A stretch of 64,000 nt of DNA from Leeia speluncae (GTDB lineage: Bacteria > Pseudomonadota > Gammaproteobacteria > Burkholderiales > Leeiaceae), in the NCBI RefSeq assembly GCF_020564625.1, contig NZ_JAJBZT010000001.1, positions 248,001 through 312,000 of the forward strand. Reading direction: 5' to 3'. The notes under the pieces were generated by a model, which saw nothing but the letters and a program-made list of their open reading frames with translations, did not search any database and had not been told where the DNA came from. Position numbers and translations under genes: made by a program. Below, piece after piece: positions 41,098-46,378 of the stretch (its first letter is position 1; every line of letters begins with the position of its first letter).

Positions 41098-41673
41098 GTG
41101 AAACCCAGCATATTGATTGTAAATGACACCAATCGGCCGATGGATGCAGCAAGACATGCATTAGAAGCGGCCGGTTATGAGGTGATTGATGAAGTCGACT
41201 CTGCAAAAGCGTTATTGCATGCAGTGTCTATTCGCATGCCTGATGTGGTGATCATTGATACGAACTCTCCCTCTCGCGATACCCTCGAACAATTGTCGGT
41301 GATGCATACAGAAGCGCCACGACCAGTCGTGATGTTTTCTAATGAAGCAGATCGCGACACTATTCGCAAAGCCGTTGCAGCAGGCGTGTCTGCTTATATT
41401 GTAGATGGATTATCTACTGAGCGGCTTGCACCCATTTTAGAAGTGGCGAAAGCACAATTTGAGCAAAAACATGAGATGGCCGTTCGGCTTGCTAACGCTG
41501 AACAGCAATTAGCTGATCGAAAGTTAATTGAAAAGGCAAAGGGTATTCTCATGGCGAGAAAAGGGCTGAGTGAGCAAGAGGCCTTTGAACAATTGCGCAG
41601 TTTGTCGATGAAGCAGGGACAAAAATTAGTCGATTTGGCGCGTCAGTTGGTATCGATGGCGGATTTGTTATGA
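41098..41673 (+). CDS. nasT: NasT-type response regulator with ANTAR RNA-binding domain
   Basis: A 191-residue antiterminator. Pseudo- or true receiver domain about 4-120 (ILIVNDTNRPMD; Asp in VVIIDTNSPS), then a coiled-coil linker and the C-terminal ANTAR domain (about 130-188: LADRKLIEKAKGILMARKGLSEQEAFEQLRSLSM as a region) that binds tandem hexaloop RNA hairpins. GTG 41098 lies 8 bases after AAGGAG. It precedes nasS and the nas structural genes. In Azotobacter, Paracoccus and Pseudomonas, NasT stops leader termination when nitrate frees it from NasS. Two candidate target RNAs lie just downstream in this window. Confidence 0.93.
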   Translation: MKPSILIVNDTNRPMDAARHALEAAGYEVIDEVDSAKALLHAVSIRMPDVVIIDTNSPSRDTLEQLSVMHTEAPRPVVMFSNEADRDTIRKAVAAGVSAYIVDGLSTERLAPILEVAKAQFEQKHEMAVRLANAEQQLADRKLIEKAKGILMARKGLSEQEAFEQLRSLSMKQGQKLVDLARQLVSMADLL

Positions 41674-41781
41674 GTGAATGGATCTGCTTTTTTGCACAAT
41701 TGCAGTGCGCGCTATGTCGTTTATGCACTATACCGAGTCGTAATTTACTAGTGGTCATACGTATTTATGCGGTTTCTGGCT

Positions 41782-41797
41782 TGGCACGGGAATTGCT
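41782..41797 (+). promoter_or_regulatory. Sigma-54 (-24/-12) promoter of nasS
   Basis: TGGCACGGGAATTGCT (41782-41797) matches the RpoN consensus TGGCACG-N4-TTGCW at every fixed position, with GG and GC ten bases apart. Transcription would begin near 41808, leaving a leader of about 190 bases before nasS. Confidence 0.85.
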
Positions 41798-41836
41798 TTT
41801 AATCTCTTCAGACAGGAGAGAGTCTCGGACAAGCTC

Positions 41837-41863
41837 TGCACCATGGCTTCCCCCCATGGTGCA
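41837..41863 (+). other. Strong hairpin in the nasS leader
   Basis: TGCACCATGG (41837-41846), loop CTTCCCC, CCATGGTGCA (41854-41863): 10 perfect pairs without a U-run. It occupies the place where the first ANTAR hairpin would be expected but lacks an A1/G4 hexaloop. The arms also resemble NtrC half-sites (TGCACCA and TGGTGCA). Confidence 0.6.
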
Positions 41864-41883
41864 TGAGCAGTCTGGTTTTGCTA

Positions 41884-41903
41884 GCAGTGCAATGAGGTGC
41901 TGC
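41884..41903 (+). promoter_or_regulatory. ANTAR-type hexaloop hairpin in the nasS leader
   Basis: GCAGTGC (41884-41890), hexaloop AATGAG, GTGCTGC (41897-41903): seven pairs with two G-U. The loop has A at position 1 and G at position 4, the two bases required in ANTAR-bound hexaloops. Its loop nearly equals that of the second nasA-leader hairpin (AATGAA). Confidence 0.6.
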
Positions 41904-41937
41904 GCATGGATGTTTACATTCACAATGAATACCAAAG

Positions 41938-41975
41938 AAGGTGATAAGTGCCGTGAGCGCTTGTCACCTTTTTTT
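41938..41975 (+). terminator. Leader terminator before nasS
   Basis: AAGGTGATAAGTGC (41938-41951), loop CGTGA, GCGCTTGTCACCTT (41957-41970): 14 pairs, then seven T in all. It lies between the sigma-54 start and the nasS ATG, so it must be overridden for nasS expression. Confidence 0.88.
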
Positions 41976-41998
41976 ATGCCGGAAAGGCGTGGTGAGCC

Positions 41999-43111
41999 AT
42001 GGTAGATAATGTTTCTGTGATGCGAAGTAAATCGAACCTAGAATTAGAAAAAACGGAATTGGTGATTGGCTATATTCCGTTAACCGATTGTGCACCATTG
42101 GTCACTGCTGTGAAGTTGGGGCTTGATCAAAAGCATGGATTGAAGATTCGATTGCAATCTGGCTCTTCATGGGCATCCATCAGAGATCGTTTAATTATTG
42201 GTGAATTGGATGCCGCACATATTCTGTATGGCATGGTCTATGGCATTCACCTAGGCATTGGCGGTATTCAGCAAAAAATGTCTGTCTTAATGACGCTGAA
42301 TCAAAATGGGCAGGGGATTACGCTTTCTAAGCAATTGCTTGGTTTAGGCATTCATGACGGCGCTAGCTTGGCTGAGTATATCCATGCGCATCCTCGCGAG
42401 TTACGTTTTGCGCAAACATTCCCAACCGGTACCCACGCGATGTGGTTGTATACCTGGCTAGCCAGTTTAGGTGTCGATCCACTCAATGAGGTGGAGTTAG
42501 TGGTTTTACCACCGCCTGAAATGGGGAATCACATGCTGTCGGGCCAAATCCATGGTTTTTGCGCGGGAGAACCGTGGAATGCCAGAGCCATACGAGACGG
42601 TGTTGGTTTTTCGGTGGTGGCGTCACAAGATATTTGGCCAAACCATCCTGAAAAGGTGCTGGGTACGACAAAAGAGTTTGTGAGTAAATTTCCAAATACC
42701 GCTCAGGCCTTAGTCGAGTGCATTTTAGAGGCGTGTCGATATATTGACGAACCCGCGCACTGTGAAGAGGTGGTGCGTTGGATGGTGGAAGATGGTTATG
42801 TTAACGCCACAATGGCGGATATTCTGCCGCGCTTTTTAGGTGTTTATGAAAATGGTTTAGGTGGATGTACGGTGACAAAGCATCCGATTCGTTTTCATGA
42901 TGAAGGTAGTGTGAATTTTCCGTATTTATCGGATGGCGCTTGGTTTGTAGATCAATTTAAGCGCTGGGGAATGTTTAGTAAGAATAAAGATGCCTTAGCG
43001 GTTGCCGCTGAAGTGAGTGAAATTGCGCTTTATAAAAGAGCGGCGCAATCCATGGGGGTTGCGTTACCGGACTCTGAAATGAGATCGGTGAATGTGGTAA
43101 ATGGCAGTTAA
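41999..43111 (+). CDS. nasS: NasS nitrate/nitrite sensor (NrtA/CmpA-like, cytosolic)
   Basis: A 370-residue periplasmic-binding-protein fold of the NrtA/CmpA/NasS group with no signal peptide, so it acts in the cytosol. Key stretches: ELVIGYIPLTDCAPLVTAVKLGLDQKHGL, GELDAAHILYGMVYGI, FPTGTHAMWLYTWLASLGVDP and GFCAGEPWNARAI. NasS binds NasT when nitrate is absent and releases it when nitrate or nitrite binds. Here a sigma-54 promoter, a candidate ANTAR hairpin and a terminator separate it from nasT, so its level is probably raised by the very NasT it inhibits. The lack of ABC permease genes nearby supports NasS over a transporter component. Confidence 0.92.
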   Translation: MVDNVSVMRSKSNLELEKTELVIGYIPLTDCAPLVTAVKLGLDQKHGLKIRLQSGSSWASIRDRLIIGELDAAHILYGMVYGIHLGIGGIQQKMSVLMTLNQNGQGITLSKQLLGLGIHDGASLAEYIHAHPRELRFAQTFPTGTHAMWLYTWLASLGVDPLNEVELVVLPPPEMGNHMLSGQIHGFCAGEPWNARAIRDGVGFSVVASQDIWPNHPEKVLGTTKEFVSKFPNTAQALVECILEACRYIDEPAHCEEVVRWMVEDGYVNATMADILPRFLGVYENGLGGCTVTKHPIRFHDEGSVNFPYLSDGAWFVDQFKRWGMFSKNKDALAVAAEVSEIALYKRAAQSMGVALPDSEMRSVNVVNGS

Positions 43112-43268
43112 GACCGCTGCTATTAGTTGTATTGCACCATGAATATGCACCAGCTTTGTCGAGAATGCACAAATTCGGAGCGGATTTAGTCAGTTAGTTA
43201 AATGCATGTTTCTGAGTGTTTTGTATAAAAGTTAATTAATTCAATAAGTTAGGTGTTTTTATAAAAGC

Positions 43269-43284
43269 TGGCACAGTTAATGCT
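43269..43284 (+). promoter_or_regulatory. Sigma-54 (-24/-12) promoter of the nasA operon
   Basis: TGGCACAGTTAATGCT (43269-43284): GG and GC are separated by ten bases and all but one core position match the RpoN consensus. Start of transcription would be near 43295. TGCAC half-sites cluster about 110 bases upstream (43135-43180), a reasonable place for NtrC binding. Confidence 0.78.
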
Positions 43285-43316
43285 TAAGTAAAAGTACTGA
43301 CGACTTCGAGAGAAGT

Positions 43317-43341
43317 TTGTTAGCGCCAACGACGGCAACAA
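43317..43341 (+). promoter_or_regulatory. ANTAR hexaloop hairpin P1 in the nasA leader
   Basis: TTGTT, bulge AGC, GCC (to 43327), hexaloop AACGAC (43328-43333), GGC-AACAA. The loop has A1 and G4. It is the first of two tandem hexaloops that form the known NasR/NasT RNA target type. Confidence 0.7.
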
Positions 43342-43354
43342 TTTGAATTTGAAA

Positions 43355-43385
43355 GTCTGATTGATCAATGAAGATCAATTAAGAC
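43355..43385 (+). promoter_or_regulatory. ANTAR hexaloop hairpin P2 in the nasA leader
   Basis: GTCTGATTGATC (43355-43366), hexaloop AATGAA (43367-43372), GATCAATTAAGAC (43373-43385) with one bulged A; A1 and G4 are present. It lies 14 bases after P1 and 9 bases before the terminator stem. Confidence 0.75.
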
Positions 43386-43394
43386 AATAAGGAC

Positions 43395-43449
43395 AAAGGC
43401 GTCCATTTGTTTCAGGAGGAGAGAACTGAAGCGAATGGACGCCTTTTTT
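43395..43449 (+). terminator. Leader terminator before nasA
   Basis: AAAGGCGTCCATTTGTTTCAG (43395-43415) pairs with the complementary arm 43426-43446 over about 21 positions with two G-U pairs. The loop is ten bases; six T follow at 43444-43449. It lies wholly between the sigma-54 start and the nasA ATG, so operon expression requires antitermination. Confidence 0.92.
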
Positions 43450-44710: not shown

Positions 44711-46378
44711 ATGCTACCGGTCATCCAGTGGTTTGCTGAAAGTCGTGCGGGTTTAAAAGACCGCAACGAAGATGCCTGGATGGTAGTGGAGCCTGAGGCG
44801 CCACTACCAAAAGATAAAGGTGTTCTTGTCTTGCTTGCTGATGGTGTCAGTGATTGTGCCGATGGTGCAGAAGCTGCAACCAGTACAGTGAGACAAATGG
44901 CCGCTGATTACTACGCGTTGCCAGACACTTTAGATGTAGTGCCAGCGCTAGAGAGACTAATTAATGCGCAAAACCAGCGCTTAAGAATGTCTCCTATCAA
45001 ACCACTGATGACCACTTTGTGCGGTGTCATCTTAAGAGGACAACGGTTGACCGTTGTGAACTTGGGAGACACCCGTTGTTACCGTATCCGTAATGGTGCG
45101 ATTACCCAGTTATCGGTGGATCACAGTTGGGATCAGCCAGGTTTACAGCATGTGTTAAAGCGTGCACTGGGATTGGACTCTCAAGTTATTCCTGATTTTG
45201 TTGAGTCAGAGTTGTTAGTTGGTGATCGCTACGTATTGGTTTGCGATGGGGTATGGGAGCCGTTAGGCGATGCTCGCATGCAAGAAATCTTAAGCCACTT
45301 TCCCGATGCGAAAGGGGCTGCCCAATCGCTAGTGCGTAACGCCTTGCAGATGGGGTCTACCGACAACGTTTCTGCGATTGTGGTGGATGTAGAAGGCTTA
45401 CCGGCTAGATCTCTTGGTGATGAGTTGGTTGGCTTAGGTGGTTTACCTGTCCCTGCACGATTGAATGCGGGTGAAAAAATTGATGGCCTGACAGTGAAAT
45501 CACTGTGGCGTGAATCGCGTAACTGCCTGTTGTACCGCGTAGAAGACGAAACGGGTCAGCCTTGGTTGATGAAAACCTTGCCTCCCATTTCTGCTGGTGA
45601 TGTGCAAGCAGAACGTGCGTTGCTGACAGAAGAATGGATTCTACGGCGTTTGGGAAGCCATTACTTCCCTGAGTTGTGCGTAAGAACTGAACGTCGTCAC
45701 TTGTATTTGTTGATGAAAGAGTATCAGGGGAGCTCCTTGGCGGAATCTCCTGAAAACCAGCAGGGCTGGAGTATTCCTGATGTGATCCAACAAGGGATCC
45801 GGATGGGGAAGGCGCTTGGTATCTTGCATCGTCGCAATATTTTGCATCGCGATGTCAAACCAGAGAATCTGCATTGGGGCGTAGATAAGCGTTTACGGTT
45901 GCTCGATTTTGGTGCGGCGTGTTGCCCTGGTGTGACGGAAGATCGCCCTGACAATATGCCGGGGACCCCTAGTTTTATGGCGCCAGAGTTATTGGCTGGT
46001 GAATTAGCTACCGCACAGTCTGATTTGTACGCAGCCGGTGTAACGCTTTACTGGTTATTAACTCACCATTACCCATATGGCGAAATTGAACCGTTTCAAA
46101 AGCCAGTGTTTGGAGAGCCAGTGTCACCAGCGCGATACCGTCCAGATACACCTGCATGGTTAGAAAGTGTGTTGCTAAAAGCGGTGGCAACCACCCCAGA
46201 AAGACGTTTCGAAACCGCAGAAGAATTTGTCATTGCATTAGAAAGAGGTGAAAGCCTTTCTCTGATGCCAAAACGGTTGCCGCTTATGCAGCGACAACCA
46301 TTAAGAGTTTGGCAGTCCATCGCATTGGGATCACTTTTACTGAACCTCTTGCTTTTATACACCTTGTTTTTGCAGTAA
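44711..46378 (+). CDS. PP2C phosphatase fused to a Ser/Thr kinase, membrane-anchored (nitrate operon)
   Basis: A 555-residue bifunctional signalling protein. The N-terminal PP2C domain (about 5-235) has GLKDRNEDAW, LLADGVSDCADGAEAA, VVNLGDTRCYRIRNG, VCDGVWEPL and GSTDNVSAIVVDV. The kinase domain (about 258-520) has HRRNILHRDVKPENLHWG, the DFG motif in LRLLDFGAACC and GTPSFMAPELLAG. A single C-terminal membrane helix (about 530-552) tethers both domains on the cytosolic side. The glycine loop is atypical. Orthologous position: P. aeruginosa PA1782 lies between nasA and nirB. Its substrate is unknown; NasA or the reductases are candidates. It is 4 bases after nasA. Confidence 0.9.
   Translation: MLPVIQWFAESRAGLKDRNEDAWMVVEPEAPLPKDKGVLVLLADGVSDCADGAEAATSTVRQMAADYYALPDTLDVVPALERLINAQNQRLRMSPIKPLMTTLCGVILRGQRLTVVNLGDTRCYRIRNGAITQLSVDHSWDQPGLQHVLKRALGLDSQVIPDFVESELLVGDRYVLVCDGVWEPLGDARMQEILSHFPDAKGAAQSLVRNALQMGSTDNVSAIVVDVEGLPARSLGDELVGLGGLPVPARLNAGEKIDGLTVKSLWRESRNCLLYRVEDETGQPWLMKTLPPISAGDVQAERALLTEEWILRRLGSHYFPELCVRTERRHLYLLMKEYQGSSLAESPENQQGWSIPDVIQQGIRMGKALGILHRRNILHRDVKPENLHWGVDKRLRLLDFGAACCPGVTEDRPDNMPGTPSFMAPELLAGELATAQSDLYAAGVTLYWLLTHHYPYGEIEPFQKPVFGEPVSPARYRPDTPAWLESVLLKAVATTPERRFETAEEFVIALERGESLSLMPKRLPLMQRQPLRVWQSIALGSLLLNLLLLYTLFLQ

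Follow-up and report, generated by a model that had tools for sequence, protein, structure and literature searches.

A putative sigma-54 promoter and NasT-type antiterminator leader between nasT and nasS of Leeia speluncae, with probable negative feedback on nitrate sensing

The genes of a presumed two-protein nitrate sensor in Leeia speluncae, nasT and nasS, are separated by 325 bp, as read directly from the sequence. We analysed the whole stretch of 64,000 nucleotides around them, referred to here as the window. It is likely, from the arrangement of sites and predicted folds, that the spacer combines an NtrC/sigma-54-type promoter with an ANTAR antiterminator leader, that NasT antiterminates nasS in a negative feedback, and that the arrangement derives from a nasT-nrtA-nrtBC operon. 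The features concerned are listed in Table 1. If this reading is correct, the inhibitor of an RNA-binding regulator is under the regulator's own antitermination switch, which would balance the two-protein sensor and provide a fast shut-off, a logic comparable to that of sigma factors that direct the synthesis of their own anti-sigma factors. The parts are all known; what is new is their arrangement and its recurrence together with the loss of an export signal. The titles and abstract openings searched in PMC describe no NasT leader ahead of nasS.

Table 1. Features of the nasT-nasS region and of the second leader (positions in the window)
Feature	Position	Strand	Remarks
nasT	41098..41673	+	receiver-like + ANTAR RNA-binding protein, 191 aa; Pfam PF00072 + PF03861
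NtrC-like enhancer site TGCACAATTGCAGTGCG	41693..41709	+	1 mismatch to TGCAC-N7-GTGCA
Sigma-54 (-24/-12) promoter TGGCACGGGAATTGCT	41782..41797	+	pattern match; RpoN encoded; probable transcript start ~41808
5' leader element	41809..41874	+	18-nt block CAGACAGGAGAGAGTCTC (41809-41826) and long hairpin (41826-41874)
P1 hexaloop hairpin	41884..41903	+	GCAGTGC-AATGAG-GTGCTGC (A1, G4), 7 pairs
P2 hexaloop hairpin, putative antiterminator half	41930..41943	+	TACC-AAAGAA-GGTG (A1, G4); forms in truncated-leader fold
Intrinsic terminator	41938..41975	+	14 pairs, 41938-41951/41957-41970; loop 41952-41956; T-run 41969-41975
nasS	41999..43111	+	NMT1_2 / NrtA-like protein, 370 aa, without export signal; PF13379
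Second NtrC-like site TGCACCATGAATATGCA	43133..43149	+	
Second sigma-54 site TGGCACAGTTAATGCT	43269..43284	+	1 mismatch
Second NasT-type leader	43355..43445	+	before NarK-nirBD-nasA operon

A preliminary description of this DNA had placed a perfect RpoN site, an A1/G4 hexaloop hairpin (AATGAG) and a 14-pair terminator with a T-run before nasS. All three were recovered: the RpoN site has 0 mismatches to TGGCACN5TTGCW, the hairpin is P1, and the terminator is strongly folded. The NasT-type leader proposed there was also borne out, as a leader with dual hexaloops; the earlier account had given one hexaloop and missed P2. The terminator stem can be extended from 14 to 18 pairs, into the T-run of seven T. 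P2 shares bases with the 5' arm of the terminator, and the computed folds of the two are mutually exclusive. P2 itself is weak, with 4 pairs, one of which is a U-G. The ANTAR motif consists of two hexaloop hairpins with at least 3 bp and with A1 and G4, according to the available text of PMC3369931, and the second hairpin is reported to overlap the terminator stem (PMC8934654, available part). In the nasS leader we found two hexaloop stems of at least 3 pairs with A1 and G4 in both, and by sequence and fold the predicted dual-hexaloop ANTAR antiterminator is complete. A search of Rfam gave no match to the nasS leader at E up to 5. Two further candidates in this region were rejected: an upstream hairpin formed by TGCACCATGG and CCATGGTGCA was ruled out as an NtrC site because of the excessive spacing of its half-sites, and an open reading frame at 41670-42005 was taken as a chance occurrence.

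For the terminator RNA (41928-41976) the computed fold has an energy of -24.8 kcal/mol (z -8.2), which none of 200 shuffles reached. When the RNA ends before the 3' arm of the terminator (41880-41945), both the MFE and the centroid structure consist of P1, P2 and a small hairpin between them; the energy of this fold is ordinary (z -1.1), with 23 of 200 shuffles equal or better. The long hairpin of the 5' leader element, the loop of which is not a hexaloop, has a fold z of -4.97 (0 of 200 shuffles). A search for perfect-stem terminators was too rigid, and a search for the overlap between P2 and terminator was used instead. The resulting strict composite search, for P1, P2, a P2-overlapping terminator and a T-run, was designed after P2 had been observed in the window. 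On both strands of the 64 kb it matched twice, in the nasS leader and in the NarK leader, and neither was reproduced in dinucleotide shuffles (0 of 1,000 for each); two comparison leaders gave 1 of 1,000 (L095) and 0 of 1,000 (L062). Across 80 named loci (1.64 million strand-bases) there were 11 matches, which share the strand of nasT in every case and never fall at a nasT-nasS junction. These counts bear on the possibility that the hairpin and T-run are a plain nasT terminator and the hexaloops are due to chance. A terminator would be nothing unusual downstream of nasT, and the search followed the observation that it was built on. However, A1 and G4 in both P1 and P2 combined with the overlap of P2 and terminator did not arise in the shuffles, the only other match in the window precedes the NarK operon, and sigma-54 and NtrC-like sites stand before the leader, so that we regard a plain terminator as very improbable.

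The sigma-54 pattern by itself is weaker evidence and is near chance genome-wide. The perfect pattern has a single match in the window, that before nasS, and the 48 found in the window when as many as 2 mismatches are allowed correspond to chance level. The whole genome has 9 perfect matches, compared to 5 for a reversed-pattern control; when the 3-kb loci around these 9 matches were examined, the module was found at one, that of nasS. We searched for NtrC-like sites with TGCAC-N7-GTGCA, which we take to be the NtrC site consensus. There are 2 matches in the window against 3.07 expected by chance, and both precede sigma-54 sites, by 89 bp (nasS) and by 136 bp (NarK). One RpoN is encoded in the genome, and one NtrC protein scores above the curated cut-off.

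In the leader of the NarK-nirBD-nasA operon, the P1 loop is AATGAA (43367-43372) and P2 is GGAC-AAAGGC-GTCC (43391-43404), which is overlapped by the terminator. The similarity of this leader to Rfam families is below threshold both for P11 (RF00625; weak, 28.9 bits with a gathering score of 70) and for narK RNA (RF03032; 20 bits of the 43.2 of the gathering score). The weakly P11-like segment is 43257-43443. Rfam annotates P11 as a Pseudomonas sRNA; it may instead be a NasT leader. A fusion of a PP2C phosphatase-like and a protein-kinase-like part, labelled from its sequence, lies between narK and nirB (44711-46378) and is matched in many of the nas clusters surveyed.

NasT is the sole ANTAR protein in this genome (one match in a PF03861 search). 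The nasS reading frame is intact over 370 aa, and its product carries the complete NMT1_2 domain (E 3.6e-89), matches NrtA and CmpC, two nitrate-transport proteins of solved structure, and is the one NasS-like protein in the genome at E up to 1e-30. Its N-terminus is without an export signal, in contrast to 117 relatives called signal-bearing. The best NrtB match in the genome has 33% identity, and none of the three genomes examined from the genus has an NrtB match passing 1e-40. Since NasS lacks an export signal and there is no close NrtB, the protein is unlikely to take part in ABC uptake. What was found is a signal-less protein of the NMT1_2/NrtA-like family, adjoining NasT, with no nitrate ABC permease in the genome, as expected for NasS. 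The NasS described in the available text of PMC3795266 likewise has no signal of the kind carried by NrtA. The same text reports that NasS and NasT of Paracoccus form a 1:1 complex that is dissociated by nitrate, and that the pathway is expressed without inducer in a nasS mutant (PMC3795266).

We propose that, under nitrogen limitation, phosphorylated NtrC (NtrC-P) and RpoN would initiate a transcript near 41808. If no NasT is free, the terminator would form and nasS would not be made, whereas free NasT bound to the hexaloops of P1 and P2 would block the terminator and allow nasS to be read. As NasT would read through the nasS terminator, free NasT would in effect order its own inhibitor. Nitrate-free NasS would then capture NasT, which would close the negative loop and set the NasS:NasT stoichiometry, the ratio being expected to stay constant as long as nitrate is absent. 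With nitrate present, the complex would be open, and NasS would be made alongside the products of the NarK-nirBD operon with its second leader; upon exhaustion of nitrate, stored NasS would switch the system off quickly. Alternatively, nasS may be an ordinary member of the NasT regulon without meaningful feedback, the levels of NasS and NasT depending mainly on protein turnover or on transcripts that continue from nasT into nasS. In several other lineages a signal-less gene heads a row of structural genes behind such a leader (L287-L291), and nasT and nasS of Paracoccus are reported to respond unequally though co-transcribed (PMC5424462, available part). However, transcripts that continue from nasT would encounter this nasS terminator as well and would also need NasT, and more NasS should matter because the Paracoccus complex is 1:1 (PMC3795266, available part). 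We therefore consider the absence of feedback unlikely and retain the negative loop as the probable function.

The comparison with Leeia oryzae DSM 17879 gave a divided result. Its nasT and residue 20 of its nasS are 437 bp apart, with a sigma-54 match between them: TGGCACACCAATTGC stands at the position of the nasS sigma-54 site, and TGGCACGGTTGATGC stands before the NarK gene. A regex search detected no NtrC-like site before the L. oryzae nasS promoter. The 18-nt block CAGACAGGAGAGAGTCTC is identical, and the long hairpin is kept with paired changes (L122, 5577-5920), but the spacer aligns well no further than the upstream hairpin. In the L. oryzae nasS spacer, P1, P2 and terminator were not recognisable by alignment, by search or by eye. 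Beyond the hairpin there is a single A..G.. hexaloop, on a stem of three pairs, which does not overlap the weak hairpin ahead of a T-run; a second hexaloop lies 5' of the hairpin. The NarK leader of L. oryzae has P1, P2 and terminator when read by eye, although the strict search missed it. As P1, P2 and terminator are not recognisable in the L. oryzae nasS spacer, the predicted nasS switch is kept in one of the two nas-bearing Leeia genomes. The NasS proteins of the two species are 59% identical, compared to 91% for NarK, and this fast evolution of NasS could mean a loss of function.

To place the spacer among relatives, genome contigs were scanned with seven NasT proteins, and the best 80 of the 216 confirmed places were used. 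In 79 of these best 80 named places, residue 20 of nasS lies 15-160 bp past nasT and the intervening DNA lacks a sigma-54 match, the exception being L. oryzae. In regarding nasT and nasS as genes that are usually co-transcribed, the preliminary description agrees with the direct linkage at these 79 places and with the reported co-transcription in Paracoccus (PMC5424462, available part). The preliminary description had also suggested a survey of nasT-nasS spacers in related genomes. Its expectation was upheld insofar as abutting genes without a sigma-54 match are the rule in the named relatives, but the combination with a sigma-54 site also occurs in other lineages.

These other lineages were found in a sample of the order comprising 399 genomes, in 182 of which the window NasS found a match with an E-value of 1e-40 or better. 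Among the matches listed, 148 binding-protein places were read, leaving out four fragments (G323, G394, G382, G168), rows below 90 bits, L113, the second L095 copy, repeat loci and, with two exceptions, further copies from the same genome. Export signals were called by pattern with five hand corrections, and a genome was counted as NrtB-bearing if it had a match of more than 300 bits anywhere. Signal-bearing proteins made up 117 of the 148, and 108 of the 117 are in NrtB-bearing genomes. Only one of the 31 signal-less proteins is in such a genome (L064 of G111), and there NrtB is encoded on a different contig, next to a copy that has the signal. This genome (L147/L064, L260) has an abutting nasT-nasS pair plus a separate sigma-54 nrtA gene with NrtB. 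The NrtB match of G268 is weak (E 7.7e-42) and under the 300-bit limit, and G335 has a divergent NrtB (34%) adjoining a second binding protein. Four genomes (G352, G140, G222 and G070; loci L115, L116, L117 and L114, respectively) have NasT but no NasS/NrtA at 1e-40 among the matches listed. In many genomes with nasT-nrtA-nrtBC clusters (for example L079, L082 and L089) the signal-bearing NrtA is the sole NasS-like protein at 1e-40, again among the matches listed. Genomes with NasT and exported NrtA alone have either another sensor or a second role for NrtA. At two loci (L081 of G152 and L121 of G196), the binding protein has a Tat-type signal with no nrtBC downstream.

An upstream sigma-54 match precedes the signal-less gene in 11 cases, namely the window, L. 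oryzae, G218, G335, G208, G163, G343, G127, G345, G372 and G278. A twelfth candidate, L105, was excluded, as its sigma-54 match is 71 bp before the core and its gene is 5' of nasT. Immediately before the spacer there is a nasT in 9 of the 11; in G218 a distance of 1466 bp separates the end of nasT from the core, and in G278 nasT is on another contig. The next gene after the signal-less gene is nirB in G127, G345, G372 and G343, nasA in G163 and narK in G278. None of the nine such genes outside Leeia is accompanied by a close NrtB. Among the sigma-54 leaders, the strict module was detected in 32 of 100 that precede signal-bearing genes and in 3 of 11 that precede signal-less ones, a sensitivity so low that its misses carry little weight. 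A relaxed search for P2 and terminator detected 70 of 100 and 7 of 11, respectively, where single-base shuffles gave expectations of 0.85 and 0.25. Reading by eye, which is softer than the script count, found P1, P2 and terminator in 8 of the 10 leaders besides that of the window: the T-run of G343 is interrupted, in G208 P2 is present without a clear terminator, and L. oryzae has none of the parts. A nasS behind a sigma-54 site and NasT-type leader is thus unusual but not unique to Leeia, and the same promoter and leader are the ordinary ones of nasT-nrtA operons.

The binding-protein trees were calculated without experimentally studied NasS proteins. In a careful tree of 57 binding proteins, the NasS proteins of the two Leeia species form the sister group (98/85) of a further 15 NasS proteins without a signal, 14 of which are encoded by genes abutting nasT. 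The next to join is G152 (100/99), which has a signal and a sigma-54 spacer and no close NrtB. The end branch of the window NasS is long (0.88). A larger quick tree set the Leeia NasS proteins apart from those signal-less NasS proteins; when Leeia and 12 NasS proteins of abutting pairs were constrained together, the likelihood was better by 21.6 units (p-AU 0.771). The placement of NasS is not secure, and long branches may draw fast-evolving signal-less proteins together. The proteins of G057 and G268 behaved similarly, grouping with other signal-less NasS in the careful tree and apart in the quick tree. The loci concerned (L101 of G268 and L103 of G057) are abutting nasT-nasS pairs whose NasT proteins group among NrtA-type NasTs, and the pairs perhaps had an independent origin. 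In a NasT tree of 67 proteins (two short rows of 69 were dropped, and G278 is absent), both Leeia proteins belong to a clade (SH-aLRT 97) in which 20 of the 24 members come from abutting pairs. G218, G335, G208, G163 and the G127/G345/G372 group fall outside it, near the NasTs of nasT-nrtA loci, and G343 falls with four other signal-less systems. Several separate conversions are likely from these scattered positions. The quick tree requires a minimum of 6 changes of signal state, although counts of independent losses are approximate.

The origin of the window arrangement is likely a nasT-leader-nrtA-nrtBC operon. In this history nrtA would have lost its Tat signal and permease partners and become a cytoplasmic sensor, with the leader retained. 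G152 looks like a half-way state with its signal, sigma-54 spacer and lack of a close NrtB. Another outcome of the same history would be that leader and gene are left over from the lost operon for uptake, with nasS in decay and a leader that is now irrelevant. Consistent with such decay are the long end branch of the window NasS, the unrecognisable terminator half in L. oryzae, and G208, in which a decaying twin-arginine signal accompanies the lack of a close NrtB and of a terminator clear to the eye. However, the module in the window is complete, the reading frame and its NMT1_2 domain are intact, and NasS groups with signal-less NasS proteins in the careful tree and the constrained test, if not in the quick tree. 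Without nasS, moreover, NasT would stand in this genome without any NasS-like protein at E up to 1e-30. A relic is an improbable explanation in our view, and we favour conversion into a functional sensor that kept its leader.

In a wider form of this proposal, NasS sensors arose repeatedly from NrtA by loss of the Tat signal and nrtBC. Each newborn sensor would have started in a NasT-to-NasS feedback loop because nrtA already stood behind a NasT-controlled leader. Leeia would have been caught at this stage, while most lineages later lost the leader and became coupled pairs. We put the chances of this general scheme at about even. It would define a route from periplasmic transport protein to cytoplasmic sensor with G152 as an apparent intermediate, leader-keeping signal-less genes in G163, G343, G127, G345 and G372, and abutting signal-less genes elsewhere.

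Among known systems, the gene order of Klebsiella oxytoca is presumably similar, with an ANTAR regulator gene, a leader and a gene of the nitrate-binding-protein family. The nasF product is an exported transport protein, whereas the gene behind the Leeia leader encodes the presumed inhibitor of the regulator. NasR, which acts on the nasF leader, is also reported to have its own nitrate-sensing domain (PMC3369931, available part). Paracoccus denitrificans nasTSABGHC shares with Leeia the two-protein nitrate sensor and the nasT-nasS order; it also has dependence on NtrC and a leader ahead of the structural genes on which an ANTAR protein acts, both of which are predicted for Leeia (PMC3795266 and PMC5424462, as far as their available text goes). 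In contrast to Paracoccus, where nasT and nasS are described as co-transcribed and the leader lies between nasS and nasA, Leeia has an extra promoter and leader between nasT and nasS.

In Pseudomonas aeruginosa, AmiR is an ANTAR antiterminator acting on the amiE leader (PMC3369931), and the inhibitor gene amiC lies within the amiEBCRS operon (PMC3795266), according to the available parts of these papers. By analogy, AmiR-AmiC is a precedent for an inhibitor gene under the leader of its ANTAR regulator. However, amiC is inside the structural operon, whereas nasS of Leeia has a separate promoter and leader, and a second leader serves the structural genes. In the nasT-[leader]-nrtA-nrtB-nrtC clusters of the order, a sigma-54 site and leader have the same position between nasT and the binding-protein gene; there, nrtA encodes a protein with a Tat-type signal, and nrtB-nrtC come next, whereas the window nasS has neither. 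The EutV leaders of Enterococcus faecalis (PMC3369931, PMC8934654) resemble the Leeia nasS leader in their A1/G4 hairpins P1 and P2 and in the mutual exclusion of P2 and terminator, but they respond to another signal and control other genes.
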